Source of the DNA: Candidatus Zhuqueibacterota bacterium
GTDB lineage: Bacteria; Zhuqueibacterota; Zhuqueibacteria; Oceanimicrobiales; Oceanimicrobiaceae
Direction of reading: 5' to 3'
DNA length: 48,539 nt
Assembly (NCBI GenBank): GCA_029262055.1
Contig: JAJDAD010000074.1
Location: forward strand, 1-48,539
The position numbers and the translations under genes are program-made. This document shows positions 19,703-43,604 of this stretch, piece after piece. The notes beneath the pieces are model-generated. The model saw only the letters and a list, made by a program, of their open reading frames with translations, did not search any database and had not been told where the DNA came from. How positions within the stretch are numbered: position 1 is the first letter of the stretch; the number at the start of each line of letters is the position of its first letter.

Positions 19703-19727
19703 GCTCTAAGATATGGAGGAATTAAGG

Positions 19728-21098: not shown

Positions 21099-21114
21099 AG
21101 GTCAAGCGCATAAT

Positions 21115-25000: not shown

Positions 25001-25631
25001 GCAGGCACTTTGGCAGGCGGTTATGGGGGACAATCCCAGCCGGTTCAAAAGCCCAACCCGGCCGGTTGAAACGGTGAGTTGGGAAGCGTGCGCGGAGTTT
25101 ATCGAGAAAATCAACGGTGAGCTGCCCGAACTTCGATTGCGGTTGCCGACCGAAGCACAGTGGGAGTATGCCTGCCGCGCCGGTACAACGGCTGCAACTT
25201 ATGCCGGTGATTTGGATATCAAAGGTCTAAGAGATGCTCCTTTGCTCCATGAGATCGCCTGGTATGGCGGCAACAGCGCTGTGGATTTTGAGTTGGAGGA
25301 AAGATACGATTCTTCTGATTGGAAGGAAAAGCAGTATGACCACAAAAAAGCCGGGACTCATCCGGTAGGGTTGAAGAGGCCGAATCCGTGGGGACTTTAT
25401 GACATGCTGGGCAATGTTTACGAATGGTGCGAAGATCGGTGGATCGATGATTTTGGCGACCAACCGGCCTTAGATCCTGCTGGTCCTGAACAGGGCACCG
25501 ACCGGGTCATCCGTGGTGGCAGCTGGATCAGCATCGCCCGGGGCGTGCGTGCTGCCTATCGCGACCGCTACGTCCCTGGCTTCCGGCACGACCTCATTGG
25601 TTTCCGTTGTGCCCGAGTTCAGGAAGCATGA
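22071..25631 (+). CDS. vWA-like (SAV_2336-type) protein fused to two FGE-sulfatase domains with DGR variable C-termini
   Basis: 1186 aa. Residues ~120-330 resemble the SAV_2336 N-terminal region: RPRLTRLLQ, then a degenerate MIDAS-like IWLDRSS and an alpha/beta Rossmann-type segment (CVLILGDLGCL). A linker leads to two FGE-sulfatase (C-type-lectin-like) domains, ~616-838 and ~936-1186, each with [21 protein letters not shown] and YDMLGNVYEWC. Each ends in a variable repeat (24453-24576 and 25494-25617). The catalytic cysteines of true FGE are not apparent, so these are probably ligand-binding folds. ATG overlaps the MoxR stop. Inference: this is the diversified sensor and vWA partner of the system. 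Confidence 0.88.
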   Translation: MQLRSRADLVRVLAQSDNDPEVAHFVGYHRELPPEKEPAIAEKGIRERPSVKPKRAIEVFKPQQSHLNWQASLFYYASLFIPGKEGSTRFTPAPEPVGYSLDELQHRELLSVKAPPRIPPLVSWPRLRPRLTRLLQESFRTRQPDVDEILRILNRGKVPSSLPFKYRKRLPGKISIWLDRSSRLVPFLEDQNALAMRLRRLVGKRNVEFYYVDDCVQSPQAFDRTRIGRQAASHLQNECVLILGDLGCLAQEQTAVRQWLLLAKQARQRNIRMLALLPAPVGRWPRELLKSCEVASWEPPAARHRQSRQLIDQRAQRLLSLCSYATWISPGLLRTVRQLMPGQADAATEADVYMHPQVGQRSAVAFTIARDAIDDLQQLFCQEPIQLQEAVASAIRNWHKSYARELWYSELLRLPKSARAGFAQEIPDAEKDVGRLAETYLNRTKSVPSRFIPVLTEWFRDLANRVSLEHAIWDEVPLLRSVFVKLEQDKEVAKMPIGYSPVEDDKPGPDRLWSVRQTGDTFTITETGAGTPDKGTTGSAVGLLRSTRPFLHCVSADVSGLVQEGHLASVFLDPQTGAVIKEQVTKPTWANDFGKDKYGLWAVLQYGDVEQRLRYIEPGKFLMGSPANEVGRWDDEKQHPVTLTGGYWLFDAPVTQALWQAVMGANPSRFKGDDRPVEQVSWKDCARFIEKLNVEIPGLGLQLPTEAQWEYACRAGTAAATYAGDLEDETKSSVLTDIAWYRANSGSDTHSVGEKNPNPWGIYDMLGNVYEWCSDWWSGDLGGKHEVDPTGPKRGTYRVFRGGGWYGRARHVRAAYRVSYGPGHRGDDVGFRCARVQDSMSSGRSVGDGGADAQAVEAPAGEGPVVFGAAGTKYIIKPEQTVAIAVHRDGRLQLQSDQGMLTVSAVTKPGWADAMGRDRFGLWLDFKYKEVEQRLRWIPPGQFLMGSPKDEAGRFDRETRHLVTLTQGYWLFDTPVTQALWQAVMGDNPSRFKSPTRPVETVSWEACAEFIEKINGELPELRLRLPTEAQWEYACRAGTTAATYAGDLDIKGLRDAPLLHEIAWYGGNSAVDFELEERYDSSDWKEKQYDHKKAGTHPVGLKRPNPWGLYDMLGNVYEWCEDRWIDDFGDQPALDPAGPEQGTDRVIRGGSWISIARGVRAAYRDRYVPGFRHDLIGFRCARVQEA
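24453..24576 (+). repeat. DGR variable repeat VR1 (end of first FGE domain)
   Basis: 124 nt aligned without gaps to the template repeat at 26086. By hand count it differs at 19 positions, all of them adenines in the template. Encoded variable residues include Y, F, G, Y, G, R, H, V, S, Y, G, H, G, D, D, V in place of mostly Asn. The 3' end GGTTTCCGTTGTGCCCGAG is invariant and is followed by TTCA, against CTCA in the template. Confidence 0.95.
24612..24638 (+). repeat. Hairpin downstream of VR1
   Basis: GACGGC (24612-24617) pairs with GCCGTC (24633-24638), with an inner GCGC-GGAT-GCGC hairpin. It starts 36 nt after VR1 and lies within coding sequence. Position matches hairpins after VR2 and VR3. 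Confidence 0.65.
25494..25617 (+). repeat. DGR variable repeat VR2 (end of second FGE domain)
   Basis: 124 nt, gap-free alignment to the template. Sixteen differences by hand count, all at template adenines (for example AAC to ATC, GGC, CGC, TTC and CTC codons). The protein ends ten nucleotides plus the stop later (VQEA). Same TTCA versus CTCA boundary difference as the other variable repeats. Confidence 0.95.
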
Positions 25632-26085
25632 GCGCCGGAAGGCAAAGGCAAGGCGGCCCCGAAGCGGAGCGCAGGGGTAAGCCGGCAAAGTAAGAGAGAA
25701 AATCATGAGTGTCAGGTTAAGGTTTGTTTAAAGTGAATAGCATCAAATTGAAAGAGACAAATCAAGTTCGAATGTCATCCCTGCATGTTTTCAGCAGGGA
25801 TCCATCTGCCAGTTTTCAGATGCCCGATCAAATGACTTTGGGCATGACATTTAACCCGCGTTGCCATTTTCAAGTCTCGGGCTTTGGCGAAGATACCCTT
25901 GCTCTTGTTTAGCTGACGCTTACTTACTCTCATTTCTCATTTGCATATATGGCTTTTAAACAATTACTTAGATGTTATTCTGAGCACGCAGGCCCAATTC
26001 TCTGTTTCTACCAGGGAGCAAAAGTGTGCGAAGAATCTCCCCGGACGTTTGAAGATTCTTCGCGCTCAGGGTAAAGGCCCAAAAG
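25632..26085. other. Gap between VR2 gene and template repeat, with dispersed repeats
   Basis: About 450 nt with no gene I can support. It starts with the VR2 hairpin. Near 25770-25860 is a palindromic repeat-like stretch (GTCATCCCTGCATG ... GGGCATGACA). Near 26030-26070 is another (GAAGAATCT ... AGATTCTTC, with CTGAGC/GCTCAG flanks). Both look like dispersed intergenic elements. It is too short for a reverse transcriptase, and no Avd-like ORF is visible. Confidence 0.55.
25654..25684 (+). repeat. Hairpin downstream of VR2
   Basis: CGGC (25654-25657) pairs with GCCG (25681-25684), and inside it CCCC pairs with GGGG around GAAGCGGAGCGCA. A nearly identical element follows VR3. It starts 37 nt after VR2, just beyond the stop codon. 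Confidence 0.65.
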
Positions 26086-26209
26086 GGCACCAACCGGGTC
26101 ATCCGTGGTGGCAGCTGGAACAGCAACGCCCGGAACGTGCGTGCTGCCTATCGCAACAACAACGACCCTGGCAACCGGAACAACAACATTGGTTTCCGTT
26201 GTGCCCGAG
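26086..26209 (+). ncRNA. DGR template repeat (TR)
   Basis: 124 nt with 11 AAC codons when read in the FGE frame (e.g. [11 protein letters not shown]), the signature of a template whose adenines are hypermutated; AAC gives NNC codons that can never be stops. By hand count 30 of 124 bases are A, and across the three variable repeats all 56 differences fall on these; the 94 non-A positions are identical in all. The 3' boundary differs from the variable repeats at 26210 (C against T), consistent with the IMH*/IMH distinction. It lacks the hairpin found after each variable repeat. The 5' limit of the transcribed RNA is not visible. Confidence 0.95.
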
Positions 26210-26262
26210 CTCATGCGCTGACTGGATGGTCTGCACCTGAACCGGTCGTTATCCTGTCCGCC

Positions 26263-27234
26263 ATGAGCGGCAAACAGCAATTGGCCTCCGGTGTGCGAGT
26301 AGGCACTCGGGCCGGAAACTCACCGGAGCAGCCTTATTTCACTGATATGCAGATTTTCCAAGAAAAAATAAGCCATCCTCTGGTCTCAGGCTGTCCACCG
26401 AATTGGGCTTCGGCTTGGGGACAGGACCAACACGGTATCTGGATAGCCTTCACTTATAAGGATGTTGAGCAGCGGATGCGTTGGATTCCGCCGGGGCAAT
26501 TTATGATGGGTTCGCCCGAAAATGAGTCCGGCCGCTATGATGATGAAACGAAACATCGTGTCACATTGACTCGTGGTTACTGGCTGTTCGACACACCGGT
26601 GACCCAGGCGCTTTGGCAGGCGGTCATGGGTGATAATCCCAGTTATTTCAAAAGCCCTGCCCGGCCCGTTGAAGGGGTGAGTTGGGACGATTGCGGGAAG
26701 TTCATTAAAGCAATCAATGCAGCAATAGCGGGGCTTGACTTGCGCCTGCCGACCGAGGCGCAGTGGGAGTATGCCTGTCGTGCCGGCACAACGGCCGCAA
26801 CTTACGCTGGTGATTTGGATATTGAAGGCGAAAGAAACGCGCCAGTGCTCCATGAGGTTGCCTGGTACGGCGGCAACAGCGGCGTGGATTTTGAGTTGGA
26901 AGATGGTTGGGATTCATCGAGCTGGACTGAGAAGCAGTATGACCACGAGAAAGCAGGGACCCACCCGGTTGCGCGGAAAAAACCCAATCCGTGGGGTTTG
27001 TACGATATGCTCGGGAATGTCTGGGAATGGTGCGATGATCGTTGGGCTAGCGACCTCGGCGAGCAGGCTCAAGTAGACCCCGCCGGGCCTTCGGAGGGCC
27101 CCGACCGGGTCTTCCGTGGTGGCAGCTGGCTCAGCAGCGCCCGGGGCGTGCGTGCTGCCTTTCGCTTCTACGGCGTCCCTGGCCTCCGGGGCAGCCACAT
27201 TGGTTTCCGTTGTGCCCGAGTTCAGGAAGCATGA
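26263..27234 (+). CDS. FGE-sulfatase domain protein with DGR variable C-terminus (third copy)
   Basis: The frame is open from 26053 through the template repeat; possible starts are GTG 26137 (inside the TR), ATG 26263 (used here) or ATG 26347, none with a good RBS. The FGE domain starts at [14 protein letters not shown] and has [15 protein letters not shown] and [11 protein letters not shown]. It is very close in sequence to the second FGE domain of the preceding gene, and its last 41 codons are VR3. It has no vWA-like part. Likely a free, diversified binding protein that shares the retroelement with its neighbour; it may alternatively be expressed by read-through from upstream. Confidence 0.8.
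27097..27220 (+). repeat. DGR variable repeat VR3
   Basis: 124 nt, gap-free to the template, 21 differences by hand count, all at template adenines, including ACC to CCC and TAT to TTT outside the AAC codons. Ends with the same invariant 19 nt and TTCA boundary. The gene stops 14 nt later. Confidence 0.95.
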
Positions 27235-27590: not shown

Positions 27591-27713
27591 TTATTCTATG
27601 TCTAAACATGGGTAAATTTGAGAAGACCACAAATAAAAAAGGCTTCCCGATTGAGAAGCCTTCTTTGTTGCGAAGATTTGATATGAATGTAGTGCGTCGT
27701 CAGGGAATCGAAC
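27458..27713 (-). repeat. Long direct repeat B with partial tRNA-Lys end (candidate attachment site B)
   Basis: About 256 nt similar to 43651-43905. It contains part of remnant B, a tRNA-type terminator (27635-27662) and 22 nt identical to the tRNA-Lys(CTT) 3' end (27692-27713), then diverges. It marks the right edge of the conflict island. Confidence 0.75.
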
Positions 27714-27766: not shown

Positions 27767-28639
27767 TTAACCCCTAAAATCAAATTCGGTAACATTCAAA
27801 GTGTCACCTCTCGCACTCAGTGTTCCGTTAAAAGTCTGGGTTGGTGCATCAGACCTGGTCACTACCACACCAATATTTGTAACTCCACTACCGCCAAAAT
27901 AGACAACCTGCACTTTGTACCGGCCATTCGGCGCCTGGCCTTGCGGCCAAAAAATATTCTCAGGGCCAAAACCGCTTGTGTTGTCAAAATCAAGGGTACC
28001 GCCGCTCGCTGAAGTTGGCGATGAGAAGAAAATACGATCACCCGCCGGATCGATTACATGTAAGTCCTGGTCCGTTTCGGTATCCCAGGTCAGCGTTATC
28101 TGAACGTCTCCGGTACCCAGCGGCAACAAAGCGATATCAAGCGGGGTCTGCCGCGTTTCGCCTGCAGACAGGGTTACAACAGTGTTGCCTGCAAAAGATA
28201 CACTTGAATTGTCGAACGCCTGCACATTGATAAAGAAAGTTTCCTCCTCACCACTAATTGGAATCGTTAGATTGCCTTCGGCAAAACGGCCTTCAGCGGT
28301 TTCAACTATTGACAAATCACGGCTGACCAGCGTTACCTGGTTCTGATTGACCACCGATACAGCAACTCTGTCAATGGCAGTTAAACCGCTGTGTTTCTGG
28401 AAAGCCGATACCAGGGGTTTCCACTCCCGGGGCAAAGGCCCATTATTACTCTTTCCTTTCGAGAAATCACCTGATGGGGTGGCGAAAACCACATTGAGTG
28501 CCAACTGCCCGGTTCGGCCGGGATTTGTGACTTGACTATCACCGCCACAACCGAAGAAAAGAGAAAGGGGGAAGACGATTGCTGCAACCAGGAACAATTT
28601 GAATTCAGCCTCTTTAAGTCTCATCATTCTAATACCCAC
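27767..28639 (-). CDS. YfaP/DUF2135-like lipoprotein
   Basis: 290 aa, last gene of a - strand operon. The signal peptide ends in a lipobox (LSLFFGCGG). The C-terminal half (~170-290) has the YfaP-type beta-sandwich pattern VQITLTWDTETDQDLHVIDP, then IFWPQGQAPNGRYKVQVVYF. The N-terminal half has no recognisable motif. Such domains bind partners or sugars at the cell surface in other bacteria; no enzyme activity is expected. The gap to the upstream barrel gene is only 16 nt, which argues that the two act together. Confidence 0.75.
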   Translation of the reverse strand: MGIRMMRLKEAEFKLFLVAAIVFPLSLFFGCGGDSQVTNPGRTGQLALNVVFATPSGDFSKGKSNNGPLPREWKPLVSAFQKHSGLTAIDRVAVSVVNQNQVTLVSRDLSIVETAEGRFAEGNLTIPISGEEETFFINVQAFDNSSVSFAGNTVVTLSAGETRQTPLDIALLPLGTGDVQITLTWDTETDQDLHVIDPAGDRIFFSSPTSASGGTLDFDNTSGFGPENIFWPQGQAPNGRYKVQVVYFGGSGVTNIGVVVTRSDAPTQTFNGTLSARGDTLNVTEFDFRG

Positions 28640-28655
28640 ATTGTTGAATTCTGCA

Positions 28656-29801
28656 TTAGAATCTAAAAGCCAATCCGCCTGATGCTTCTATAGCAGTGAC
28701 GTCAATATCACTGTTGGGGCCGGTATTGATACTTCCTTTTGAGTAAATAAAAGCAGGGTTGAATGACACGTGCCTTGAAAGTTTCCAGTCAAAGCCACCT
28801 CCAACTCCCCAAATGGTTGCTCCGTCAACTTGTGATTCGGTGTCGCCGTACACCGATAATTCGACAATATACTTTAGGTCAAAGCGCCGGCCGGCGGGTT
28901 GAATAAAAGTCGCTCTCAGTTGAACCTCATTGCCATTGTCCACCAACTCCGGACGTAGATTGTCTTCGATACTGTTCTCCGAGCGCGTTCTACTGGTGGC
29001 AGAGAGAATTATCGGGTCGAATATAGCGATAGGAAGAAGGAGTTGCCCACGCACTACAATTTTGTCTCCGGACTCGTAGTCCGGCTGTTGTGGAATTTCA
29101 TCCTTCGAATAGGTGGTATAAATGAAATCCGCTACAAACTTGCCCGCGCGGTCTCCGAACTCAAAACCTCTCTCTACACCAACCGTGAAATTCAGTTCGT
29201 CCCCAGGGTCAACCTGGGTATTTTGTCCGTGCAATGTGACGTCATATTCGCTGCGCAACAGATAGCCTGCCCCGACGCCAACCACCACGGACCCAAACTC
29301 CTGGGCCAATGCTAATCCCACGCTGTAAAGAGGACCAGTTCCAAAGTTCGTAACCGGGTTGTCCAGAGGTTTAATTGCCGCAAGTCCGGACAAACTGAAT
29401 TCGTCGGTGGTAAGATCCGTTTCTCCGGTGGGAATGCCGGCGCCAACCGAAAGCAGCGCGACATTATCACCCAAAACATAAGAACCCCGGACAAAAGTAT
29501 CAGAGACGTTGTTGAATTCCCTGCTCGATCCCAAAGCCGGTTCAAACTTGCTCAAGAACGGCGCAGCAGTGACATCGAAACTCAAACGTTTACCAAGCCG
29601 GACGGAGTAGACTAATGGGAACGCAATTTCCGTAAACTTGTCGTCGCCGCCACCCTGGTCAAATGTCCATTGTTTAAAATGCGCTCCCGGTGTGAAGGTC
29701 CGACCTCGAAAAAACTCAAACTGCTCAACTTGCCCTGAAACCGGTTTGGACACAAGCAGCAAGAATATCATGAATGCCGTACTGTTTCTGTGAAATTTCA
29801 T
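28656..29801 (-). CDS. Outer-membrane beta-barrel protein
   Basis: 381 aa from ATG 29801, which has a GAGGGG RBS; the longer frame start at 29843 does not. The signal peptide ends near VSG. The mature chain is dominated by alternating amphipathic beta-strands with aromatic belts (RFDLKYIVELSVYG) and ends in Phe (GGLAFRF), the usual C-terminal signature for BAM-inserted barrels. It resembles transporter/porin-type proteins annotated as phenol or alkane-type barrels, but I cannot assign a substrate. It sits between a CsgG/TPR lipoprotein and the YfaP-like lipoprotein. Confidence 0.8.
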   Translation of the reverse strand: MKFHRNSTAFMIFLLLVSKPVSGQVEQFEFFRGRTFTPGAHFKQWTFDQGGGDDKFTEIAFPLVYSVRLGKRLSFDVTAAPFLSKFEPALGSSREFNNVSDTFVRGSYVLGDNVALLSVGAGIPTGETDLTTDEFSLSGLAAIKPLDNPVTNFGTGPLYSVGLALAQEFGSVVVGVGAGYLLRSEYDVTLHGQNTQVDPGDELNFTVGVERGFEFGDRAGKFVADFIYTTYSKDEIPQQPDYESGDKIVVRGQLLLPIAIFDPIILSATSRTRSENSIEDNLRPELVDNGNEVQLRATFIQPAGRRFDLKYIVELSVYGDTESQVDGATIWGVGGGFDWKLSRHVSFNPAFIYSKGSINTGPNSDIDVTAIEASGGLAFRF

Positions 29802-29863
29802 TGCTATCCCCTCGATGAGTTCAACGGGTGAATGTTGACACACACTCTGGAATTGGCTCTGGT

Positions 29864-31216
29864 TTATTGGCCCTCGGGAAGAGGCACTCGAATCAAAAGG
29901 GTTGCTGTTGCTGAACCTGTCGGAGAATCGGTACCAGTCTCTTCCGGAAGCGGCTCTCGCGTGTCATTGTCGCCCTGCGGCATTTGGCCAGTCTGAGCTG
30001 CAAGCCCGGTTAAGTGTAAACGTGAAACCTTGCTGCTGGTCGACACGGTTTCAGCTTCTGAGCTGAATTCCTCAGTCAGCTCGGTTGTGCTTAGCTTTGG
30101 CTCTGCCGCCGCCTCTTGCGAGGTCTTAACGTCTGAGAGGCCTTGCCGGGCAGTACTGAAATTGGGATCTATGCCGACAGCTCGTTGAAACTCAGCGCTG
30201 GCCTGGTCAAACATGCCACGATCTGCGTAATCCAAACCTTGAGAATAGGCCATGAAAGCCAACAAAGATTCCGTTGGAATCTGTTGAATGGCGTCACGCT
30301 CTGCTTTGGTCAGAGCAATTCCAAACTCATCAATAACAGAAAACACGAGACTTTTTTCCAGCTTAAAGAATGAATTCAAGTCACCAGTGATTTCCTTTAG
30401 CGCTTCCGATTCCGAAGAGACCGTCTCGGTCAGGGCAGCATCGATGCGCAACCGCTCGTCCGCCAATTTGGTAAAGCCACCGCTGACCAACTTGCGGGCG
30501 CCAAGCAACTTCCCAACTCGCGGGGCACTATCTTCTTCAACCAACCCGGATTGCCCGAACTCGAGTTCTTCAAGCAGGCGTTGCAGTTTCAAGCGTTCGA
30601 CAATCTGCAACTGCTCAACTTTGGACAAATCCGTGATCATCATCTGCGCCAGGCCCTTCTGGAGAGGGTTGAGTTCCGGTGTGTCTCCTAAGTTGCGGAA
30701 GGTCAGCACCGCGACGGTATTCTCCGGGATTGCGTCGGCCGAGAGGTCCGATTCCGTAGCGATGGCTGTTTCGATCTCTCGTGCAATTTGTTCGTTGCTT
30801 AGTTGCTTGATGCGGTTGGATATCTTCCTTTTAAAGCCTCCGGACCGGGCCAATTGATCGTAGGTTTTGTATTCAGCGATTGCTTCCGGCAGCATGTCCA
30901 TCGCTTCATAGGTCAGGCCAAGGTAGAAGATAGTTTTGGCGTTACGGGGATCGATTGATTTTGCCTCTTTGAGCTTTGCAGTTGCGTCGTCATAACGCTT
31001 GGTTTCGTAATAGGCGATTCCCAAGTCGCGCTTTACCTGAAAGTCGTTCGGATCTTCTTGCTCTGCAGCCTGAAGCAAGTCTATGGCATTCGTGTATGAC
31101 TGCCTTCTGAGTTCGCCGAGGCCGCGATCATAAGTGCTTGTTGCGCAGCCGAGTTGGAGCATATACACTGACAAGACAAGCAGAAAGTACTTAAGGCATG
31201 TTGTGGGTTTTTTCAT
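29864..31216 (-). CDS. TPR lipoprotein with CsgG-like domain (copy 3)
   Basis: 450 aa from ATG 31216 (RBS GGAG); the longer frame adds 16 unlikely residues. A lipobox (LQLGCA) ends the signal. Residues ~25-120 contain TPR motifs (DFQVKRDLGIAYYETKRYDD). Residues ~150-310 are CsgG-like: VAVLTFRNLGDTPELNPLQK, then MITDLSKVEQLQIVERLKLQ and APRVGKLLGARKLVSGGF. Another TPR follows, then a disordered acidic tail. Homologous domains occur in the two next upstream genes. Family knowledge: CsgG-like domains form outer-membrane pores or periplasmic assemblies. Confidence 0.85.
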   Translation of the reverse strand: MKKPTTCLKYFLLVLSVYMLQLGCATSTYDRGLGELRRQSYTNAIDLLQAAEQEDPNDFQVKRDLGIAYYETKRYDDATAKLKEAKSIDPRNAKTIFYLGLTYEAMDMLPEAIAEYKTYDQLARSGGFKRKISNRIKQLSNEQIAREIETAIATESDLSADAIPENTVAVLTFRNLGDTPELNPLQKGLAQMMITDLSKVEQLQIVERLKLQRLLEELEFGQSGLVEEDSAPRVGKLLGARKLVSGGFTKLADERLRIDAALTETVSSESEALKEITGDLNSFFKLEKSLVFSVIDEFGIALTKAERDAIQQIPTESLLAFMAYSQGLDYADRGMFDQASAEFQRAVGIDPNFSTARQGLSDVKTSQEAAAEPKLSTTELTEEFSSEAETVSTSSKVSRLHLTGLAAQTGQMPQGDNDTREPLPEETGTDSPTGSATATLLIRVPLPEGQ

Positions 31217-31264
31217 GGTGAATCTCCGTGCAATACTGATTTCAGAAATAGGCCCCGGGGCCAA

Positions 31265-31622
31265 TTCACCGAGCAGTTGTTAAACAACTACAGTTTGGTT
31301 GGAAGGTATTATTTTACACGCAGAGGCTGTGCCGTACATTGTCCGTTTGGATGTCTGCGTGACTGTACCGCTGGAGGAGAGGTGAATACCTAATCATAAA
31401 TAAGTCATCCCGTTACAAAAAAGCAACAACTTTGTGAATGTAGAGCAGGTGTTCTGTTTTTCAAAAGAGGCGAATGACTTCTTTGCGTTTCAGAAATTTT
31501 GGCATCTTGAGATTTTCCTCAAAGGTTTCCACCGTAATAACTCCAACCTGAGACGAATCCTCACTCAGTTCCTGTCATCAAGCTTGGAAGGTCGCGCTTT
31601 AGGCCATTGCGGGTAAGGGATG
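31265..31622. other. Intergenic gap between CsgG-like genes
   Basis: About 360 nt. No gene, terminator or RNA can be supported. It separates copies 2 and 3 of the CsgG-like genes and probably holds the promoter of the 29.8-31.2 kb genes. Confidence 0.5.
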
Positions 31623-32735
31623 TCAATTCGAGCGGTGCAGGATGCTCTCCAGTTCCGAATCTGAAAGTCTTTTTGTGCTGGCCCGGCCAATGTAAAGGCG
31701 TGCCAACTTGAAATCCGGATCCAGGCTGAGTGCCTTGCGCAACTGTTCTTGTGAGTCGCGAGTCTTGCCCTGATCTGCAAAGTGCAGCGCTTTGCCAAAC
31801 GCGATAAAAGCCAGGTTACTTTGGGTGGGTGGAATTTGTACGATCCTGCGTTGCGTCTGGCTCAGGTTGAGATTCAGGTTCCGGATGATATCCAGGGTGA
31901 GTTTCTTTTCCGAGGCCAAAACGTCAGAGAGTTGCGCGGTTACGCGCGAGCCGCTTCCGATCAAATGTCCGGTCCTGGCGTCAACCACTCCGGCTGACAC
32001 GCTGATCCGGGTATCGCTGACGCGTTCGATGCCGCCGGTGACGAGGAAGTTGGCTGCGAGAATGTTTCCGATCTCGGTCATGGGGAAGTCATCATACAGG
32101 CGGGTTGGCGTCGTTTCGAGTTCCTCTATCAGAATTTGAACCTGCCGCCGCTCTTTCAGTTTGAGGCTTTGAATTCTGGCCAGGTCATTTATCAGAATTT
32201 CCGCAAGCCCTTTGATAACCGGATCCAGCTCGCCCCAACTTGAGAGATTGCGGAAATAGAGAACCGCAACGCTGTTGCCGGCATTTGGCCCGGGCGCTGC
32301 TTTCCCTGTCAGTTTGTCTCGGATGCCGGCTCGCCAACCTTGCTCCTGATTCTCCGTCATCCGGGCGAGCAGTTCACTCTGCACGGCGGCAGTGACGTCC
32401 AGGGTTGCCAGGTAGCGGTAGATGACGGCCGCTTTTGAATGTTGCCGGGAAGCCTCATAACTGAACCCCAGGAAAAGCAGCGTGGCCTGGTCCGAGGATT
32501 TGATATGGAAAGCTCGAATCAACGAGCGGACGGCCTGTTGATATTCGCCCGACTTGTAGTGCGAGATACCGGAATCCAGTGCCCGTTGCCATTCAGCCTG
32601 CTCGGTGCCGGAACTGGCAGAGACGCCTGGTTGCTTCGTCAGCCGACGGTTCTCCCGGCTTTGTGCTGCGCAACTGCCGCAAGCCAGGGCAATTGCCAGG
32701 AGAGCAAGAAATCCCTTGTGGCGATTGGCGGTCAT
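31623..32735 (-). CDS. TPR lipoprotein with CsgG-like domain (copy 2)
   Basis: 370 aa. A lipobox-like LACGSC ends the signal peptide. TPR-like helices (ISHYKSGEYQQAVRSLIRAF) lie near residues 55-125. The CsgG-like domain follows: VAVLYFRNLSSWGELDPVIK, INDLARIQSLKLKERRQVQI, and ILAANFLVTGGIERV. A last TPR-like helix (LHFADQGKTRDSQEQLRKAL) precedes the C-terminus. The domain order matches copy 3 and, without the lipobox, copy 1. The start overlaps no neighbour and lies 30 nt after the stop of copy 1. Confidence 0.85.
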   Translation of the reverse strand: MTANRHKGFLALLAIALACGSCAAQSRENRRLTKQPGVSASSGTEQAEWQRALDSGISHYKSGEYQQAVRSLIRAFHIKSSDQATLLFLGFSYEASRQHSKAAVIYRYLATLDVTAAVQSELLARMTENQEQGWRAGIRDKLTGKAAPGPNAGNSVAVLYFRNLSSWGELDPVIKGLAEILINDLARIQSLKLKERRQVQILIEELETTPTRLYDDFPMTEIGNILAANFLVTGGIERVSDTRISVSAGVVDARTGHLIGSGSRVTAQLSDVLASEKKLTLDIIRNLNLNLSQTQRRIVQIPPTQSNLAFIAFGKALHFADQGKTRDSQEQLRKALSLDPDFKLARLYIGRASTKRLSDSELESILHRSN

Positions 32736-32765
32736 CCCCGAAACCTGAAAAAGCCGGCTTGACAG

Positions 32766-33824
32766 CTAAAGCGTGAGGGGCCGGATGACTTCTGCCATGT
32801 CGAGGGCTTTCTGGAAATTTGGGGCAATGGCGATAGCTTCTTCCAGTTTGATGACTGCATCTTTGTAATCTTCCTGATTGGCGCTGGACATGGCATCGCC
32901 AAAGAGCGCCACGGCTTCGATTGGAACATCTTCCCGCCCTAACTCGTTTAGGCGTTTCCGCTCAGCTTTTTGAATAGCAACATCCAGGTCTTTTGAGATT
33001 TTGAGCGTCAACTCTTTTGCCAACTGAAGGATCTTTGATGGTTTTCCTTCCACGGATGCTGTCTTGAAAATTTCACCGGTTTCTGTTTTCACCAGGCGGG
33101 CATCAATACGAAAAACTTTGCCCAATCTTATGAAGCTGCCAAAAACGAAGGCGTGTGCCCCCAACAGTTTTCCAAGGCGGGGAGCAGCGTCCTGATCCAC
33201 AACATTTTGGCCGCTGATCTTCTTGGCGGTCAGCTCCAGTTCGTCGATAAGGAATTGGATACGTTCCCTTTCGACCACCCTAAGGTCGTTGACGACTGCG
33301 AAATCACCGATGAGAATCTTGGACAGAGCATTTCCCAGATTGGTGTATTTGTCGGCGTCATCGATGGAGTTGTTTTCAAAGTCCATTATGGCGATGGTCC
33401 GGATGCCGGGGTCTTTCGCTGAGACACCTAAAGACTGTCCTGTTTTCTTGAGGGTGCGATAATACCCGGTCATTAGCCGCCGGTGCGGCCACCACTGGTC
33501 TGACGGCTTGTAATTGGGGGCACGCTGCAGAATCTGATCAAACACGCCTTCCGCTTTTGAGTCCTGTCCGATTGTGACATAGGACACGGCCAGGTATTCG
33601 CTCGCCTCCACGTAATTGTCATTCGATAATGTGCTCGTTACCAGAAGCCTGTCAAGAAGATTGATTGCGGCGCTGAAATCACCACCCTTAAAATGCTGCT
33701 TTGCGGTCTCCAGCTCGACACTCCTGGCGTCCTGTGACGTTACAGAGGAAAAAACGCGACCGTTGCTCGACTGAAGAAGAAGAGTAGAAAAAACAATCAT
33801 GGCAACCTTTTGTCTAATCTGCAT
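32766..33824 (-). CDS. TPR and CsgG-like domain protein (copy 1)
   Basis: 352 aa with an N-terminal signal segment (VAMIVFSTLLLQSS) but no clear lipobox. TPR helices (AKQHFKGGDFSAAINLLDRL) come first. The CsgG-like region is IAIMDFENNSIDDADKYTNL, ILIGDFAVVNDLRVVERERI, then APRLGKLLGAHAFVFGSF and FRIDARLVKTETGEI. Its start is only 11 nt downstream of the kinase stop, so the kinase and this protein are in one operon. Probably a periplasmic partner of the two lipoprotein paralogues. Confidence 0.85.
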   Translation of the reverse strand: MQIRQKVAMIVFSTLLLQSSNGRVFSSVTSQDARSVELETAKQHFKGGDFSAAINLLDRLLVTSTLSNDNYVEASEYLAVSYVTIGQDSKAEGVFDQILQRAPNYKPSDQWWPHRRLMTGYYRTLKKTGQSLGVSAKDPGIRTIAIMDFENNSIDDADKYTNLGNALSKILIGDFAVVNDLRVVERERIQFLIDELELTAKKISGQNVVDQDAAPRLGKLLGAHAFVFGSFIRLGKVFRIDARLVKTETGEIFKTASVEGKPSKILQLAKELTLKISKDLDVAIQKAERKRLNELGREDVPIEAVALFGDAMSSANQEDYKDAVIKLEEAIAIAPNFQKALDMAEVIRPLTL

Positions 33825-33835
33825 TTTTCTCTCCC

Positions 33836-35833
33836 TTAGTTCGTTCTGGTAAACTGGAACTTAAGTGTTGTCCGTTGGCCACTTCTGACCATCACTTTTT
33901 GTTCCGGTTCTTTAGGGACGTAGCCAAACAATTTTGCTTCAACTGTATACTCACCTTCCTCTAACGAGAATGATATTGGCGTCTGACCCAGCTGGTTGCC
34001 ATTGACCAGAATGTTGGCTACCGAGCTGACCTCGGCGCCGCCTTCCAGTTTCATGGCTATTACCGTCAACTGGCCTTTTTCTTTTGGGGCCAGTTGCACA
34101 GCCACTTTTGCTTCTTTTTGGGGTTCAATCTCTATTTGCGTTGAGACGTCATTGTAACCGGCACGTGCCAGACGCACGCTATGCTGGCCGACGGCGAGCT
34201 CAGGAAATGCGGCCGGTGTCACTTCAGCGGTTGCGACCTCATCGATGAAGATTTCTGCGCCTTCAGGTTGGGAGTCAACAACCAATGTGCCCATCTGCGG
34301 GATTTTTTCTTTCTTCTGAGATCTTTCTGTAAGGGTTCTCGTTTTTTTCCGGGCAGGCACGAGCTTTGTCAATTTCGGTGTCCAATCCGCTACTTGCTTG
34401 GGGGCCGCACTCATGGTCTTGCTGACGGTCTGAAATCCTGTTTTTTCTAACCTCACCTCATGGTTACCAGCCACCACTGCTTCTAGCAGAGCAGGGGTTA
34501 CCAGACCCGTATCCATTCCGTCGAGAAAGATTGCGGCGCCCGGTGGCGTACTACCAAGGTTAAGATCTGAGACCAGGGTAAGCGTGTTTAGCTCAAAAGA
34601 GCTGCTGATGGTATCGTTGTTGGCCAACGTGATGGTTTGTGAAGCGCTGTCGTAACCGGTGAGAGCCAAAGTAAGGGCATACGATCCTTCCTGGAATGGG
34701 CCCAGGAGGGCCGGGCTTCTTGCTCCCGTCGGTTTGTTATCCAATAGCACCTCGGCGCCGGGCGGATTTGACTCTACTTTGATAAACCCGATATTATCCG
34801 GATCATTTTTTCTGAGCAGACTTGCTGCGATCAAGCCCACTGCGGCGATCAAGCCGGCGGTCGCCAGAATAACTTTGCGCCGTTTGTTCTTGCCTTTACT
34901 TGCAGGCCCGTAATAACCGCCGGCAGGACTCCTGGGTTTTTCTTCCTGATGGCCCAACCTCGCAGGTTGCACTATAGTGGCGATTTGGTCGGTGGTGATT
35001 TGCTGCGGAGGAGCAGCCCGGAGAAGATCATCGAGCATGCTATCGATATCGCTGTAACGATCTTCGCGCTTTTTGGCCAGAGCTTTCTCCAGGATAGCCT
35101 TGATCTCAGCCGGTATGATGGCCGAGGCCTCGGCGTCGAAGTCAGCCGGCGTATTGACGATGTTAAACAGGACGGACATTTCATCTCTGCCTTTAAACGG
35201 CAGTTGACCGGCCAGGAGCTCGTAGAAAATCACTCCCAAAGACCAGATGTCGCTGCGGGAATCCGCCTCTTCGCCCCGGGCTTGTTCGGGAGACATGTAG
35301 GCAGGGGTCCCCATAGTTGTGCCGGCCTTGGTGAGTCTGGTCGAGCCCCCTAGCTTCGCAATCCCAAAATCGACGATTTTGACGAAGCCATCACTGGTAA
35401 TAATGATGTTGGCCGGCTTCACGTCCCGGTGCACAATATCCTGTTTGTGGGCCTCTGAAAGACCGTTGGCTATCTGGCGAACATTTTGGATAGCATCTTC
35501 CGGCGCCAATTCCTCTTCTTCCATCTTTTGCTTGAGCGTCTTCCCGTCATAATAGGCCATGGCGATAAACATCTCGCCGTCCTCCGTTTCCTCTATCTCG
35601 AAAATGGTACCGATGCGCGGATGGTCAAGAGCGGAGGCTGCGCGCGCTTCATTCATGAACCGGGTCTTGGTCTCATCATCAGTCAGCAAAGCCGAAGATA
35701 GGAACTTCAACGCGACCGTTCGCTTGAGCTTCAGGTCTTCGGCCTTGTAGACAATGCCCATCGCACCCCCACCCAGACGACTCGTAATTCTGTAATGGGA
35801 AATGGTTGTGTCAATTCTTGGATCGTTGTTCAC
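33836..35833 (-). CDS. Membrane Ser/Thr protein kinase with PEGA domains
   Basis: 665 aa. The N-terminal kinase domain (~10-275) has GGGAMGIVYKA, VALKFL (ATP lysine), HRDVKPANI (catalytic loop), DFGIAK and the APE-equivalent GTPAYMSPEQARGE. A single membrane helix (~325-345) follows, then three to four PEGA-type repeats outside (e.g. VESNPPGAEVLLDNKPTGAR; VDSQPEGAEIFIDE). Family knowledge: Hanks-type kinases with extracytoplasmic sensor domains. The head of the operon carrying three CsgG-like proteins, so it may phosphorylate regulators of that envelope system. The divergent region before 36176 should contain its promoter. Confidence 0.93.
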   Translation of the reverse strand: MNNDPRIDTTISHYRITSRLGGGAMGIVYKAEDLKLKRTVALKFLSSALLTDDETKTRFMNEARAASALDHPRIGTIFEIEETEDGEMFIAMAYYDGKTLKQKMEEEELAPEDAIQNVRQIANGLSEAHKQDIVHRDVKPANIIITSDGFVKIVDFGIAKLGGSTRLTKAGTTMGTPAYMSPEQARGEEADSRSDIWSLGVIFYELLAGQLPFKGRDEMSVLFNIVNTPADFDAEASAIIPAEIKAILEKALAKKREDRYSDIDSMLDDLLRAAPPQQITTDQIATIVQPARLGHQEEKPRSPAGGYYGPASKGKNKRRKVILATAGLIAAVGLIAASLLRKNDPDNIGFIKVESNPPGAEVLLDNKPTGARSPALLGPFQEGSYALTLALTGYDSASQTITLANNDTISSSFELNTLTLVSDLNLGSTPPGAAIFLDGMDTGLVTPALLEAVVAGNHEVRLEKTGFQTVSKTMSAAPKQVADWTPKLTKLVPARKKTRTLTERSQKKEKIPQMGTLVVDSQPEGAEIFIDEVATAEVTPAAFPELAVGQHSVRLARAGYNDVSTQIEIEPQKEAKVAVQLAPKEKGQLTVIAMKLEGGAEVSSVANILVNGNQLGQTPISFSLEEGEYTVEAKLFGYVPKEPEQKVMVRSGQRTTLKFQFTRTN

Positions 35834-36175
35834 GGCGAGATCCCCGTTACTTCCTCATGAGCTAAGTTTTGCTTTTAGGCAACTGTTTGTCGCCACCAAC
35901 AATGACAGCATTCTTCGAGGACGGGCAAGAGATAGTGAAACTATCGGAAAAGAGAGCCTATAATCAATCTAAAAGCGTCTGTAAAAGAAGCAAGCTTTTA
36001 TTGTGGTTCGCCAGGTCAGCAGGTGGCAGATAACCGGCCTGGGTGCGCCCGGTCCATGCGGCGAAGTTTTCAGCATTGGTTTAACGGACTTGAACTTTTC
36101 CCCCGCCTTTGTAAATTGTCTCAAAGCACAGAAGGACAACCTTCGGATCAGGCCAGACCAAAGGAGAATACTGCG
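35834..36175. promoter_or_regulatory. Divergent intergenic region between kinase and lytic transglycosylase
   Basis: About 340 nt between two outward-facing genes, so promoters for both are expected here. I could not identify a convincing -35/-10 pair. AAGGAG at 36161-36166 is the RBS of the transglycosylase. Confidence 0.4.
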
Positions 36176-37678
36176 ATGATTTTGGAAAACTGGATGACGA
36201 AGTTGAGATCAGCGCTCTCAGCCCGGGTTTCCCTTTTTGTGATGGGGTTGTTTGCCGGATCTGCACTTACACTGCTGGTACTGTATTTTCCCACTGAACT
36301 TGTTAAGATCCACTGGCCGGACGATGACACGGGACAACCGTCGGTCACAAGGCTCGATCGTCCTACGATTGACCTGCCCACCAATGCGCGCATCGAAGCA
36401 AGAATTCGATATTACCTCCAACCGGGTCGCCGGACAGATTTGCTCAGTAGTTATGAGCGCTCAGGAAGATATATGTCGATCATCGCGGCAATTCTGGAGG
36501 AATACGACATGCCGGCTTCTCTCGCATATTTGCCTGTGTTGGAAAGCCGTTTCTTACCGCAAGGCAGGTCGCGTCGCGGAGCAGCAGGATTGTGGCAACT
36601 CATGCCCGGGACGGCTTCGGATTATGGTTTGAAATACAACCGGTGGATTGATGAGCGCTTCGATCCCGAGAAAGCCACGGTGGTCGCGGTCGAATACTTG
36701 AAGTATTTGCACGACCGTTTTGGCAATTGGGAGCTCGCCCTGGCAGCATACAATTGCGGTCCAACTCAACTCAAAAGAGTTATGCGCCGCGATCAGACCA
36801 ATGATTTTTGGAAGTTGAGGGGGCTTCCGCGCGAGACCTACAATTTTGTGCCTAACTTTTACGCAATATTACATATTCTAACGGATCACGAAAAATACGG
36901 CGTTACATTGCCCGCTTTGAGTGACCCATTGGATTACGAAACGATCGAGATTAATTCGACCTTTTCGGTCGACCAGATTGCACAGCTTGCAAAAGTGCCG
37001 CCCAAAATCATCCGCAAACTGAATCCGGCCCTGCTTGCAAATATAGCCCCAGGTGGCGCCTATTCAATCCGCGTGCCAATGGGGATAAAGGAACAATTTC
37101 TGGAGCAACATAAGAAGAATCCATTCGACGAAGTAGAAATCACTTACACAACACATAGAATCAGGCGGGGCGATACGCTCTCGAAAATTGCAACCAGGTA
37201 TGGTACGACGGTACAGGCTATTATGGCGGACAACAATTTGAGGAGTTCCAGATGGATTAAGGCCGGCATGAAGTTGCGAATCACTTCCGTCAGCGTCAGG
37301 GAAACATCCCCTGCCGATAGTACATTGAATCAGTCCGTCTTAAATGACAGCCCATCCGAAGCGGGGAAAGTCAGGATTACCTACAGGGTTGAAAAAGACG
37401 GTTTGGCCCTCAAGACCGTTGCGCGCTATTTTGCGGTGTCCAGCGCGGAAATCAAAGAGTGGAACCAGTGGCTGCAATCGGACAGACTGCAGTATGGGGA
37501 GGAGCTCCGTATTATCAAATCCGCCGCCGGCATGGTTCTGCACAAGACGAGGCGGGGAGATTCACTTTGGAAAATTGCACGGCGCTACCACACGACCGTC
37601 GGCAGTCTGAAGCGATGGAACCGACTCACAAGTTCCAGAATTTATCCTGGTAGCAATCTCATAGTCGGACTGAGATAA
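36176..37678 (+). CDS. MltD-like lytic transglycosylase with LysM domains
   Basis: 500 aa from ATG 36176 (RBS AAGGAG; the frame extends upstream to 36023 without one). A membrane/signal helix (SLFVMGLFAGSALTLLVLYF) is followed by the SLT domain: YLPVLESRFLPQGRSRRGAA with the catalytic Glu in LESRF, then GLWQLMPGTASDYGL and ALAAYNCGP. Three LysM-type segments follow (HRIRRGDTLSKIATRYGTTV; a less regular one around YRVEKDGLALKTVARYF; KTRRGDSLWKIARRYHTTV). Reaction: cleavage of peptidoglycan glycan strands to 1,6-anhydro products. Its opposite-strand neighbours are envelope genes, consistent with a cell-wall role. Confidence 0.92.
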   Translation: MILENWMTKLRSALSARVSLFVMGLFAGSALTLLVLYFPTELVKIHWPDDDTGQPSVTRLDRPTIDLPTNARIEARIRYYLQPGRRTDLLSSYERSGRYMSIIAAILEEYDMPASLAYLPVLESRFLPQGRSRRGAAGLWQLMPGTASDYGLKYNRWIDERFDPEKATVVAVEYLKYLHDRFGNWELALAAYNCGPTQLKRVMRRDQTNDFWKLRGLPRETYNFVPNFYAILHILTDHEKYGVTLPALSDPLDYETIEINSTFSVDQIAQLAKVPPKIIRKLNPALLANIAPGGAYSIRVPMGIKEQFLEQHKKNPFDEVEITYTTHRIRRGDTLSKIATRYGTTVQAIMADNNLRSSRWIKAGMKLRITSVSVRETSPADSTLNQSVLNDSPSEAGKVRITYRVEKDGLALKTVARYFAVSSAEIKEWNQWLQSDRLQYGEELRIIKSAAGMVLHKTRRGDSLWKIARRYHTTVGSLKRWNRLTSSRIYPGSNLIVGLR

Positions 37679-38000: not shown

Positions 38001-38789
38001 TTATGAATGAACCTTTCTCAGGACTTTGGTTTCCTGAGCATCCTGCTCCTCTTTTGTAACTCTTACCACGATGGCTGTCAGATGGTCCTTTGCGCCTCCG
38101 GCATAGCAGTGTTCTTTGAATGCCCGGCATATCTTATCTAAAACTCCGGAATTCTTCTCGAGATTTTGCAGTATTTCATTGTCAGAGTTGTAGTTGTAAA
38201 CTCCGTCCGTGCAAATGATGAAAATGTCCTGATCTTTGAGGTTGACTTTTTGGATGTCCGGTTCAACCGTTGGCCCGGCGCCTAGGGCCCTGGTTATGAC
38301 ATTACTCTCAGCAAAATTTTTCTCATCGACCGTATTGGGGGGCATCATGTCAATAAGATTCTGCAATTTCGAATGATCTTTGGTCAAGCGCAACAGTTGG
38401 TGTTTCCGGTAGAGGTAAATCCGGCTGTCGCCAACATGGGCTAAAACCGCATCATCCCCTCTGAGCAAGGCCAGGGCAATGGTCGAACCCATGGCTCTTT
38501 GCAACACGCCGGCCTTTTCGTACACCTTCTCGTTGCCGGCCCTAACGAGAGCTTGCGTCAACTCAATCGCATCCGGGATCGATGTGTTCAGACGATCGTT
38601 ATGCAAAGCATCGCGGATCGTTTGCACAACCGTTCTGCTCGCCACGTCACCAGCTGCCGCTCCGCCAACGCCATCAGCGACGGCAAAGATCTTGTCTTTC
38701 TCAAGCACCAAATAGCTGTCTTCATTGACATCGTTCTTGATGCCGAGGCCATTGTCCGTGATGCTCGCAGTTTCAACAGATATGCTCAT
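38001..38789 (-). CDS. PP2C-family Ser/Thr protein phosphatase
   Basis: 262 aa. PP2C metal-binding motifs are visible: NEDSYLV, VADGVGGAAAGDVAS, GDSRIYLYR and CTDGVYNY. Reaction: metal-dependent dephosphorylation of phospho-Ser/Thr. Its ATG overlaps the stop of the FtsW-like gene (ATGA), so it is translationally coupled. The likely counterpart kinase is the PEGA kinase at 33836, which is outside this operon. Confidence 0.93.
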   Translation of the reverse strand: MSISVETASITDNGLGIKNDVNEDSYLVLEKDKIFAVADGVGGAAAGDVASRTVVQTIRDALHNDRLNTSIPDAIELTQALVRAGNEKVYEKAGVLQRAMGSTIALALLRGDDAVLAHVGDSRIYLYRKHQLLRLTKDHSKLQNLIDMMPPNTVDEKNFAESNVITRALGAGPTVEPDIQKVNLKDQDIFIICTDGVYNYNSDNEILQNLEKNSGVLDKICRAFKEHCYAGGAKDHLTAIVVRVTKEEQDAQETKVLRKVHS

Positions 38790-40336
38790 GCTGTCTCTCT
38801 GACGCCGTTCCTATGCGACAGGCCCATCAAGAAACCGATTATGATGCATGATATCAGAAATGAGAACCCGCCTCTGCTGATGAAAGGCAGGGTGATGCCG
38901 GTCAGTGGAATCAGCTTGACCACACCCCCTATGTTAACAAAAACTTGTATGGCAAGCATGGTTGTAAAACCGAGTGCCAGCAGTCGTTCAAGATCCGTTT
39001 CCGAGTGGATGACGACGCGCATGCCCAGAAAGAAAAGCAGGAGATACGACAACACGATTAGCCCGGAGCCGATAAAGCCTATCTCTTCAGCGAGAGCGGA
39101 ATAAACGAAATCGGAAACGACCAGTGGAATGTTGGTCGGGTAGCCGAGGCCAAGACCGGCGCCAGTCCAGCCGCCTGCATTCATTGCGAAAAATGAATTC
39201 ATTATTTGGTAAACGCTATCCCACCAGGCTGCGTCGTGTGGCATTCTCCATACGTCACCCCAAATCAGAAAACGTTGCAATACGTGCGGTGGGATAATGC
39301 CCTCTAACAAAAAAATCAGTTTTGACACCAGAACCGTCACTGCGATTCCGCCGAAGAGATAGAGGTATTTTCTGGTGATTACGAAAATCATGATGACCAC
39401 CAGTCCGCCATAGATAATTACCTGGCCGAAGTCTTTCAGCAAGACGAACAGAGCTTGTGGAATCAACCAGACCAAAATGAACGGCCCCCAAATCAACAGG
39501 AGGCTTTGCAGCTTCTTGCCCCTCACTTTACTTGCCTTGCGTGTAAAGTCATCTTTGTAGTTAGCAAAAAAGCCTGCCAGGAAGATTATGATGGTGATCT
39601 TGAAAGCCTCCCAGGGTGTCATTTTGTAGACGAAGCGACCCCTTGTGCCCACTTCACTCAAGGCTACGAACACGACCAGCATGAAGACCGTAAATGCCAT
39701 CCAGAAAAAGGGATTGTTCAGGGACTGCATGAACTTCTCCCTCGCGCATTTCCTGATTATGAAAACGATCGACAGCAAAGCAATGAGGTGGGAAATGATC
39801 AGGCGCGACCACCCGGGAAAGCTCTCCACCAGATCTCGCAGAAATTGACCCCATTTGAATTGATCGAGTCTAAGCAGCTGTTTGGCTTCGTGCTGAATGG
39901 ATTCGATTCCTCTCTCATCGGACAACCGGGCCGTGCCCGTGGCAGTGACGAAAACCGAATCGGCAAGGGCTTTTTTTGTTGCTGCCGCCGAGTACTGTTT
40001 CACAAGTGTCTTCTGGAAGTCGACGTTTATGGCGGAACTAATTCTATATTGAATTGCGAAGCCAATCCCGGTGAGCAAAGCAACGACCACCAATATGGAA
40101 AAATCTCCCTTGTAGCTTCCTTTCAAGATCGCATATATCAGAAAAAAGAAGGACATGAGCACGGTATTTCTGAGCAGGACCGTAAGGCTGGGATCGTAGC
40201 CGCGCGCATTGCCGGCAAGGTAAACCGATAGCATTCCCAGAACCGAGATAGCCAATGCCAGGCTTAGTCCCAGACCAGGGTTAATTTTTGGACGTTTTGG
40301 CGCTGCCATTGCCGCCATCAAAATACCCAAGTTCAT
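38786..40336 (-). CDS. FtsW/RodA-family SEDS protein with extra loop
   Basis: 516 aa, longer than the usual ~380-420. The SEDS core is recognisable: PQALFVLLKDFGQVIIYGGL, YQIMNSFFAMNAGGWTGAGL, then LPLTGITLPFISRGG-type residues near the end (LIPLTGITLPFISRGGFSFL). An insertion of about 80 residues (from ~120 to ~200, VKQYSAAATKKALADS) lies between early helices and is not typical. Role: peptidoglycan glycosyltransferase partnered with a class B PBP. The start overlaps the end of the PBP gene; ATGs at 40336, 40318 and 40309 are all possible and none has a good RBS. Confidence 0.9.
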   Translation of the reverse strand: MNLGILMAAMAAPKRPKINPGLGLSLALAISVLGMLSVYLAGNARGYDPSLTVLLRNTVLMSFFFLIYAILKGSYKGDFSILVVVALLTGIGFAIQYRISSAINVDFQKTLVKQYSAAATKKALADSVFVTATGTARLSDERGIESIQHEAKQLLRLDQFKWGQFLRDLVESFPGWSRLIISHLIALLSIVFIIRKCAREKFMQSLNNPFFWMAFTVFMLVVFVALSEVGTRGRFVYKMTPWEAFKITIIIFLAGFFANYKDDFTRKASKVRGKKLQSLLLIWGPFILVWLIPQALFVLLKDFGQVIIYGGLVVIMIFVITRKYLYLFGGIAVTVLVSKLIFLLEGIIPPHVLQRFLIWGDVWRMPHDAAWWDSVYQIMNSFFAMNAGGWTGAGLGLGYPTNIPLVVSDFVYSALAEEIGFIGSGLIVLSYLLLFFLGMRVVIHSETDLERLLALGFTTMLAIQVFVNIGGVVKLIPLTGITLPFISRGGFSFLISCIIIGFLMGLSHRNGVRETA

Positions 40337-41939: not shown

Positions 41940-41942
41940 TTT

Positions 41943-42659: not shown

Positions 42660-42677
42660 TATCCACTCCCGGAGAAT

Positions 42678-43526: not shown

Positions 43527-43604
43527 GATAATTGCCTCAAACTGGTTAGTGAAGCAACGAGGAGGAGAGAACCACTTCAAATATGTTAAATAACCGTAAA
43601 TAAG

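Follow-up and report, generated by a model that had tools for sequence, protein, structure and literature searches.

A half-CsgG lipoprotein, an outer-membrane barrel and a lipoprotein with a differing tip: a candidate surface-display module encoded beside a PEGA kinase in a KSB1-type bacterium

The window analysed here is the whole 48,539-nt stretch of contig JAJDAD010000074.1 from a Candidatus Zhuqueibacterota bacterium, a candidate division KSB1-type organism of a little-known group, whose genome (5.7 Mb, 114 contigs) is 97% complete. Six open reading frames (ORFs), all on the minus strand, occupy positions 27767–35833, and we call them KIN, CSG1, CSG2, CSG3, BARREL and X. A first-pass annotation, made from the sequence alone, had described six same-direction genes within these limits, which agrees with the ORF list, and had read them as an envelope-spanning machine under phosphosignalling control. 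The features of the locus are listed in the order KIN to X.

33836–35833, minus strand: KIN, 665 residues; Ser/Thr kinase domain (residues 14–264), hydrophobic segment at about 321–340 and four PEGA stretches (Pfam, motifs, hydropathy).
32766–33824, minus strand: CSG1, 352 residues; signal peptide without a lipobox cysteine, then TPR, half-CsgG domain and TPR (Pfam).
31623–32735, minus strand: CSG2, 370 residues; lipoprotein-like, with TPR, half-CsgG domain and TPR (Pfam).
31217–31622, minus strand: intergenic gap of 406 bp between CSG2 and CSG3, a possible second promoter region.
29864–31216, minus strand: CSG3, 450 residues; lipoprotein with TPR, half-CsgG domain, TPR, a low-confidence linker and a C-terminal tail with a strand-like end motif (ORF listed from 31264).
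28656–29801, minus strand: BARREL, outer-membrane barrel of 16 strands, counted by eye (ORF listed from 29843).
27767–28639, minus strand: X, lipoprotein with a constant N-terminal domain (residues about 16–166) and a YfaP/DUF2135-like C-terminal domain.
27635–27666, minus strand: terminator-like hairpin of 14 pairs, directly after X.

The intergenic distances, in the same order, are 11, 30, about 406, about 62 (20 from the listed BARREL start) and 16 bp. Since the 406 bp gap separates CSG2 from CSG3, the genes probably form two transcription blocks, KIN–CSG1–CSG2 and CSG3–BARREL–X. An Rfam search of the gap returned nothing at the gathering score, and a promoter scan was uninformative, with 14 candidates on both strands against 5.9 expected. 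For CSG3, a start at 31216 is more likely than the listed TTG at 31264, because the lipoprotein signal begins there.

The linkage of CSG3 and the barrel is well supported. The family of the window comprises eight genomes, its own included, and the order KIN–CSG1–CSG3–BARREL occurs in seven of them (six of the seven relatives); KIN in G001 is represented by its PEGA end only, at a contig start, and the genes of G006 are split over two short contigs, so that their order cannot be judged. X follows the barrel in seven of the eight genomes, the contig of G001 ending at that point. Among 40 genomes, own included, 28 carry both the barrel and CSG3, one (73% complete) carries CSG3 alone, none carries the barrel alone and 11 carry neither, where CSG3 presence means a profile match at E ≤ 1e-50 and G006 is counted through a CSG2-type match plus a CSG3 fragment. 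A CSG3-type gene, defined by 41 hand-picked profile rows that span both TPR and CsgG (one row is truncated), lies upstream on the same strand and contig for 34 of the 40 barrel genes; the other six have none on their contig. The distance is at most 400 bp in 22 of these 34 pairs and 1.3–10.4 kb in the other 12, with large ORFs in those loci that were read. Across the GTDB phylum the barrel is found at E ≤ 1e-20 in 51 of 82 genomes, and its presence is clear-cut, since the weakest listed match has an E value of 2e-43. The earlier view that the genes belong together therefore stands, as their independent occurrence in relatives was not seen and the order is kept in same-family genomes. The three CsgG-like proteins, which it had treated as an equal set, are not equal: of the three, it is CSG3 to which the barrel is tied, and CSG2 is missing in G004 of the same family.

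In a wider scan of genome contigs, which yielded 200 relatives, 290 stretches came up as candidates and 79 loci were kept. In 56 of the 79 the barrel gene follows downstream of CSG3 on its strand, in 38 of them within 300 bp. By record title the module is present in about ten phyla; these are titles of metagenome bins and are fallible, as one locus that is almost the same as a Calditrichota locus is titled Actinomycetota. Clustering of neighbours by similarity alone recovers CsgG-type proteins in 79 loci, barrels in 56, kinases in 16, giant exoproteins in 16 and X-type lipoproteins in 14, followed by a group of 311–375 residues in nine (the single member scanned with Pfam is trypsin-like), PP2C in seven and FHA in four, besides groups that carry no label or are plainly housekeeping. 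Some of the giant exoproteins of these 16 loci are joined to the group solely by a shared C-terminal domain and are not operon members; the giants of L093 and L110 match FlgD_ig over its cut-off and sorting domains weakly. The recurrent partners are exoprotein-like, either X-type lipoproteins or giants, and the core conserved beyond the family is CSG3 and the barrel, often with X. The novelty of the locus lies in this unnamed barrel–lipoprotein–display unit, and not in the kinase operon as a whole. No description of the gene set was found in the open-licence PMC literature, a scope outside which subscription papers and preprints lie, in line with the first-pass annotation, which had not recognized a described system.

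Several arrangements stand beside this core. In L053, L068 and L069, CSG3, an FGE-like protein, a giant protein of 2200–3000 residues and the barrel are encoded in a row. A second, two-gene type, with no barrel in view, pairs a TPR/CsgG protein of about 400–420 residues with a CsgG protein of about 235–254 residues (L115, L122, L130, L135, L141, L143 and L150), and the TPR/CsgG protein ends in glycines and a histidine in the first five of these. In the deltaproteobacterial loci L128, L138 and L146, the module adjoins genes for PP2C, a trypsin-like protein (by Pfam in L138), a PEGA kinase, FHA and a divergent VipB-type sheath, the last of which differs from the principal VipB that these genomes also have.

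CSG1, CSG2 and CSG3 each match CsgG (PF03783) above the Pfam cut-off together with TPR, as the first-pass annotation had claimed. It had also taken two of the three to be lipoproteins, and a lipobox-like cysteine is present in CSG3 and, in atypical form, in CSG2, while CSG1 has a plain signal peptide; all 20 of the CSG3 proteins that were aligned share this cysteine. The PF03783 matches stop at profile position 99–102 of 210 (CSG1 spans 5–101 and CSG2 4–99), whereas the real CsgG of the same genome, on contig C42, reaches position 197 as a control. The pore-forming transmembrane hairpins of CsgG sit in the second half of the domain. Because the CsgG parts of CSG1–3 lack this half, a curli-type pore is ruled out; moreover, none of the six proteins matches CsgE or CsgF in Pfam at E 0.1. 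In the AlphaFold2 model of CSG3, which is confident apart from the linker and tail (mean pLDDT, the predicted local distance difference test, 89), a short turn joins the two strands where CsgG would have the hairpin stretch. The module thus resembles the CsgG curli channel and HfaB, itself CsgG-like, in having a CsgG-family domain on a lipoprotein linked to surface proteins, and differs in matching the first half of the profile only, in having no transmembrane hairpin stretch and in using a separate barrel.

All 38 CSG3 domains compared match CsgG at E 0.1 or better, and weaker Pfam matches are to LpoB (20 domains, best E 1.4e-4), the TolB N-domain (seven) and FlgO (three). The half-CsgG domain differs from these three in being fused to TPRs and tied to a barrel. 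A fold search with CSG3 is filled by TPR proteins. Likewise, when the sequences of solved structures were searched with whole CSG3, TPR proteins and designs made up the best 60 of 305 matches, and one deltaproteobacterial CSG3 matches mainly TPR designs; the half-CsgG domain alone gave chance matches only in that search.

BARREL has a weak, general Pfam match to OMP_b-brl, below its cut-off. Despite this, its model is a very confident barrel (pLDDT 92), which upholds the original call of an outer-membrane barrel; the count of 16 strands excludes two short ones at 200–212. Iterated profiles on the locus ORFs place the barrels of all loci in one unnamed family. Five Pfam families match any of its 54 members at E 0.01, and since Slam/DUF560 is not among them we rejected membership of that family. 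PorP/SprF and PorV are type IX secretion barrels, and no type IX secretion barrel family matches any of the 54 members at the same threshold. FadL, porins, CdiB/TpsB, BamA, PgaA and PelB resemble the BARREL model about equally, so the fold by itself gives no function. The barrel alignment found weak matches only in a sequence search of solved structures, and BARREL found none in a plasmid collection.

X carries a lipobox-like cysteine, and its C-terminal part is about 40% identical, over about 65% of its length, to E. coli proteins annotated as YfaP (E 4e-10). The first-pass label of a YfaP lipoprotein is right on these two points, with the YfaP match confined to the C-terminal part; E. coli YfaP (DUF2135) differs from X in the constant N-terminal domain and in the operon. 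Whole X has no Pfam match at E 0.1 and matches one unnamed family in PHROGs. A profile of the constant domain, grown from five X N-termini that are all barrel neighbours, found 29 ORFs at E < 1e-3 in the 79 loci and the window. All 29 lie on the strand of the barrel: 22 directly after it, four between CSG3 and the barrel and three one giant gene further on. Two weaker matches fall below these, one of them in a locus without a barrel. All 22 members that were aligned share the lipobox cysteine, and identity is otherwise low.

The tip of X differs between loci. It is YfaP-like in the window, BNR and Fn3 in L086 (Pfam), similar to PEGA and YfaP in L078, and discoidin-like, by eye only, in L075 and L076, with Pfam empty for L075. 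In L092 a laminin G domain (Pfam) is located within the constant domain, and by alignment position similar inserts occur in L088, L090, L096–L098 and L103. X is the least conserved protein in four of five same-family genomes, with 26–33% identity to its window counterpart compared with 42–50% for the barrel and 50–52% for CSG3. The genome of the window holds one X-domain match, which adjoins its barrel. In other genomes, several X-domain matches that have no barrel beside them have a PEGA match at a distance of up to about 1.5 kb (G025:C224, G029:C29 near 103 kb, G029:C70, G038:C74 and G038:C96), which shows the constant domain in a further setting linked to PEGA.

KIN matches Pkinase and four PEGA stretches in Pfam, bears the HRD, DFG and GTPAYMSPEQ motifs, and shows a single hydropathy peak near residue 321, a predicted transmembrane segment between the kinase domain and the PEGA part. 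It is accordingly the membrane Ser/Thr kinase with PEGA repeats that had been described. Because the hydrophobic segment separates the two parts, the PEGA part is predicted to be periplasmic. This segment is the sole inner-membrane element of the set, so that the term envelope-spanning is not supported, and the phosphosignalling control was a guess from gene order. The first-pass picture of an envelope machine is partly right, the genes being linked as a set, and it missed the barrel–lipoprotein–display core.

A PEGA kinase is present in 16 of the 79 loci, and in all 16 the kinase closest to the module has PEGA over the Pfam cut-off; L077 has only the PEGA part on its contig, and the score of L109 is marginal (22.6 against a cut-off of 20.8 bits). 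In the class outside the window's family, a kinase lies beside the module in two of 20 barrel-bearing genomes (G025 and G027), a count that leaves aside the contigs with the barrel in G020, G028 and G037, as well as one of two such contigs in G022. On a barrel tree from a short search, the hand-assigned label of a nearby kinase (15 of 56 rows) needs at least seven changes, gains and losses not being told apart, and the kinase accompanies the module in several separate branches. The PEGA kinase is an add-on that the module does not require.

From these features we tentatively propose that CSG3, BARREL and X make up an outer-membrane display or export module, and that KIN, with CSG1 and CSG2, reads its state in this family. 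The lipid of CSG3 would anchor the protein in the inner leaflet of the outer membrane, where its TPR arms and half-CsgG domain could hold or guide a client. The flexible C-terminal tail of CSG3 would dock on the barrel, which would pass X or seat it at the surface with its tip (YfaP-like here, lectin-like in some relatives) facing outward. The constant part of X may thus serve the machine and the variable part the outside world. In this family, CSG1 and CSG2 would be extra periplasmic subunits alongside the PEGA kinase, which could read the state of the module or the wall through its periplasmic PEGA repeats and signal inward. A bolder form, which we hold somewhat unlikely, is that CSG3–BARREL is a new type of outer-membrane translocon, spread over about ten phyla, which brings a dedicated cargo, either a lipoprotein or a giant exoprotein, to the surface, with the C-terminal strand of CSG3 docking on or gating the barrel and the PEGA kinase sensing its state in some lineages.

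The closest parallel in logic may be Slam. Slam has its TPR domain and barrel in one protein; here they would correspond to two separate genes, CSG3 and BARREL, the module has an extra half-CsgG domain, and the barrel belongs to another family. Slam and the type XI secretion system (T11SS) are barrel systems that serve surface lipoproteins encoded nearby, and their cargo joins shared and variable parts, according to an excerpt of PMC12282271. X is likewise an adjacent lipoprotein with shared and variable domains; its shared part is N-terminal, whereas that of Slam cargo is a C-terminal barrel domain. The module would therefore follow a similar logic with different, split parts.

A number of observations weigh against the display or export proposal. 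The barrel fold does not separate transport from a plain porin, and the structure models cover CSG3 and BARREL as single proteins only. CSG3-like genes have no barrel in view in 23 of the 79 loci, 11 of which have less than 2.5 kb left downstream. The CSG3 tails speak for the proposal, in that a strand-like motif, an alternating hydrophobic stretch, ends 38 of 57 barrel-linked tails (11.5 expected by shuffling) as against three of 22 barrel-less CSG3-like proteins and 138 of 536 other ORFs, but this pattern was picked after the tails had been read; a stricter first motif occurs in 14 of 56 barrel-linked and one of 23 barrel-less proteins. In the 40 genomes the constant domain of X has 46 matches at E ≤ 1e-3, 24 beside a barrel and 22 away from one. 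At E < 1e-15, 15 of 17 lie beside a barrel, which favours the proposal, but these best matches lean toward barrel neighbours because the profile was trained on them. No X match lies within 7 kb on the same strand for 17 of the 40 barrels; some of the 17 are at contig ends, and several adjoin giants, for which a separate exporter may exist. Lastly, X of G007, the fifth of the same-family genomes compared, reaches 47% identity, above the 44% of the barrel.

Among the alternatives, the most resilient, although unlikely in our judgement, is that the barrel and CSG3 merely keep X, or some other structure of the surface, attached to the outer membrane, X arriving by another route. HfaA, HfaB and HfaD form the anchor complex of the Caulobacter holdfast. 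The holdfast anchor, as covered in an excerpt of PMC6707917, is the model for such a passive anchor. The laminin G, BNR and Fn3 tips of some X proteins suit an anchor, as do the giants with FlgD_ig and weak sorting-domain matches, which share operons with the module and may have an exporter of their own. On the other hand, the part with which a CsgG-type ring enters the membrane is missing from the half-CsgG domain, and one barrel family kept with CSG3 across phyla would seem to exceed what an anchor needs.

Export of a polysaccharide to which X binds, through a TPR lipoprotein, a barrel and a CsgG-like ring as in PelB/PelC or AlgK/AlgE, appears distinctly less plausible. AlgK/AlgE combine a TPR scaffold and a barrel at the outer membrane, and the lipoprotein ring of PelBC-type export has twelve parts. 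The PelBC plan, in the excerpted text of PMC12141448, joins TPRs, a 16-strand barrel and a ring lipoprotein; the module shares the TPR scaffold, the 16-strand barrel and an outer-membrane lipoprotein, with the scaffold and the barrel in two genes and not one. PgaA and PelB are also among the structure matches of BARREL, tied with the others, and some X proteins have lectin-like tips. In contrast, no polysaccharide synthase or glycosyltransferase has a Pfam match in the 29 window proteins scanned or appears among the labelled recurrent neighbour clusters, some clusters being unlabelled. The varying partner is a protein, which takes the place of the polysaccharide synthase genes.

Two features next to KIN bear on a further alternative.

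36023–37678, plus strand: MltD-like lytic transglycosylase with LysM, divergent from KIN and likewise divergent in G004 (L035).
38001–43580, minus strand: block of FHA, FHA, penicillin-binding protein (PBP) transpeptidase, FtsW/RodA and PP2C genes (Pfam).

LpoA and LpoB are the lipoproteins to which the TPR/CsgG-like lipoproteins would be likened if they regulated peptidoglycan or the response to envelope stress, with the kinase tuning the adjoining PBP, RodA and MltD. We regard this as improbable. The weak LpoB matches of 20 of the 38 CSG3 domains speak for it, as do the MltD, PBP, RodA, FHA and PP2C genes that adjoin in the window (MltD in G004 too). Yet a PP2C match at E ≤ 1e-6 lies near the cluster in the window and G007 only, two of the 40 genomes, for which reason a fixed link to wall synthesis was rejected, and the conserved partners are the barrel and X. 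The FHA–PBP–RodA–PP2C block, which presumably corresponds to the gene set of the actinobacterial pknB region, contains no kinase itself, and its products are possible phospho-signalling partners of KIN. The threonine-phosphorylation pathway of the type VI secretion system (T6SS) needs a T6SS in the genome. A role as accessory of a T6SS-like contractile system under a kinase/phosphatase/FHA switch is very improbable and was rejected as a general role: in L128, L138 and L146 FHA is followed by a gene for a divergent sheath of the VipB type, but the gene examined in L123 and L129 is not VipB, the 97% complete genome of the window has no VipB match, and 19 of 20 such genomes, picked by hand, have VipB anyway.

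Little is known of how Gram-negative bacteria other than Proteobacteria display proteins on their surface. With a barrel family that is present in many phyla, keeps a steady lipoprotein as its partner and has a client of varying tip, the question of surface display becomes testable. If the kinase does read the module, this would give a Ser/Thr kinase a route to sense the outer membrane.

On the other side of the operon, at 0.5–3.3 kb from it, there is a clear diversity-generating retroelement cassette with four repeats.

24451–24572, plus strand: variable repeat, at the end of an FGE-type domain.
25492–25613, plus strand: variable repeat, at the end of an FGE-type domain.
26084–26205, plus strand: template repeat, asparagine-rich.
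27095–27216, plus strand: variable repeat, at the end of an FGE-type domain.

Over the 122 nt, all 57 mismatches fall at adenines of the template (57 of 90 A positions and none of 276 others). Six RVT_1 matches occur in the genome of the window, none of them on this contig, and three lie in frames of 345–360 residues. The plus-strand genes at 19713–27234 encode, in a row, a trypsin-like protease, an AAA ATPase and two FGE-domain proteins, the retroelement targets; they resemble conflict-system gene sets with retroelement-diversified domains, as excerpts of PMC10907252 and PMC7159879 describe these. Finally, a plus-strand gene at 6182–7495 encodes a haem protein of the ethylbenzene-dehydrogenase type, which carries a type IX-like sorting domain at its C terminus (Por_Secre_tail over its cut-off), and this gene sits amid cytochrome and molybdopterin oxidoreductase genes.

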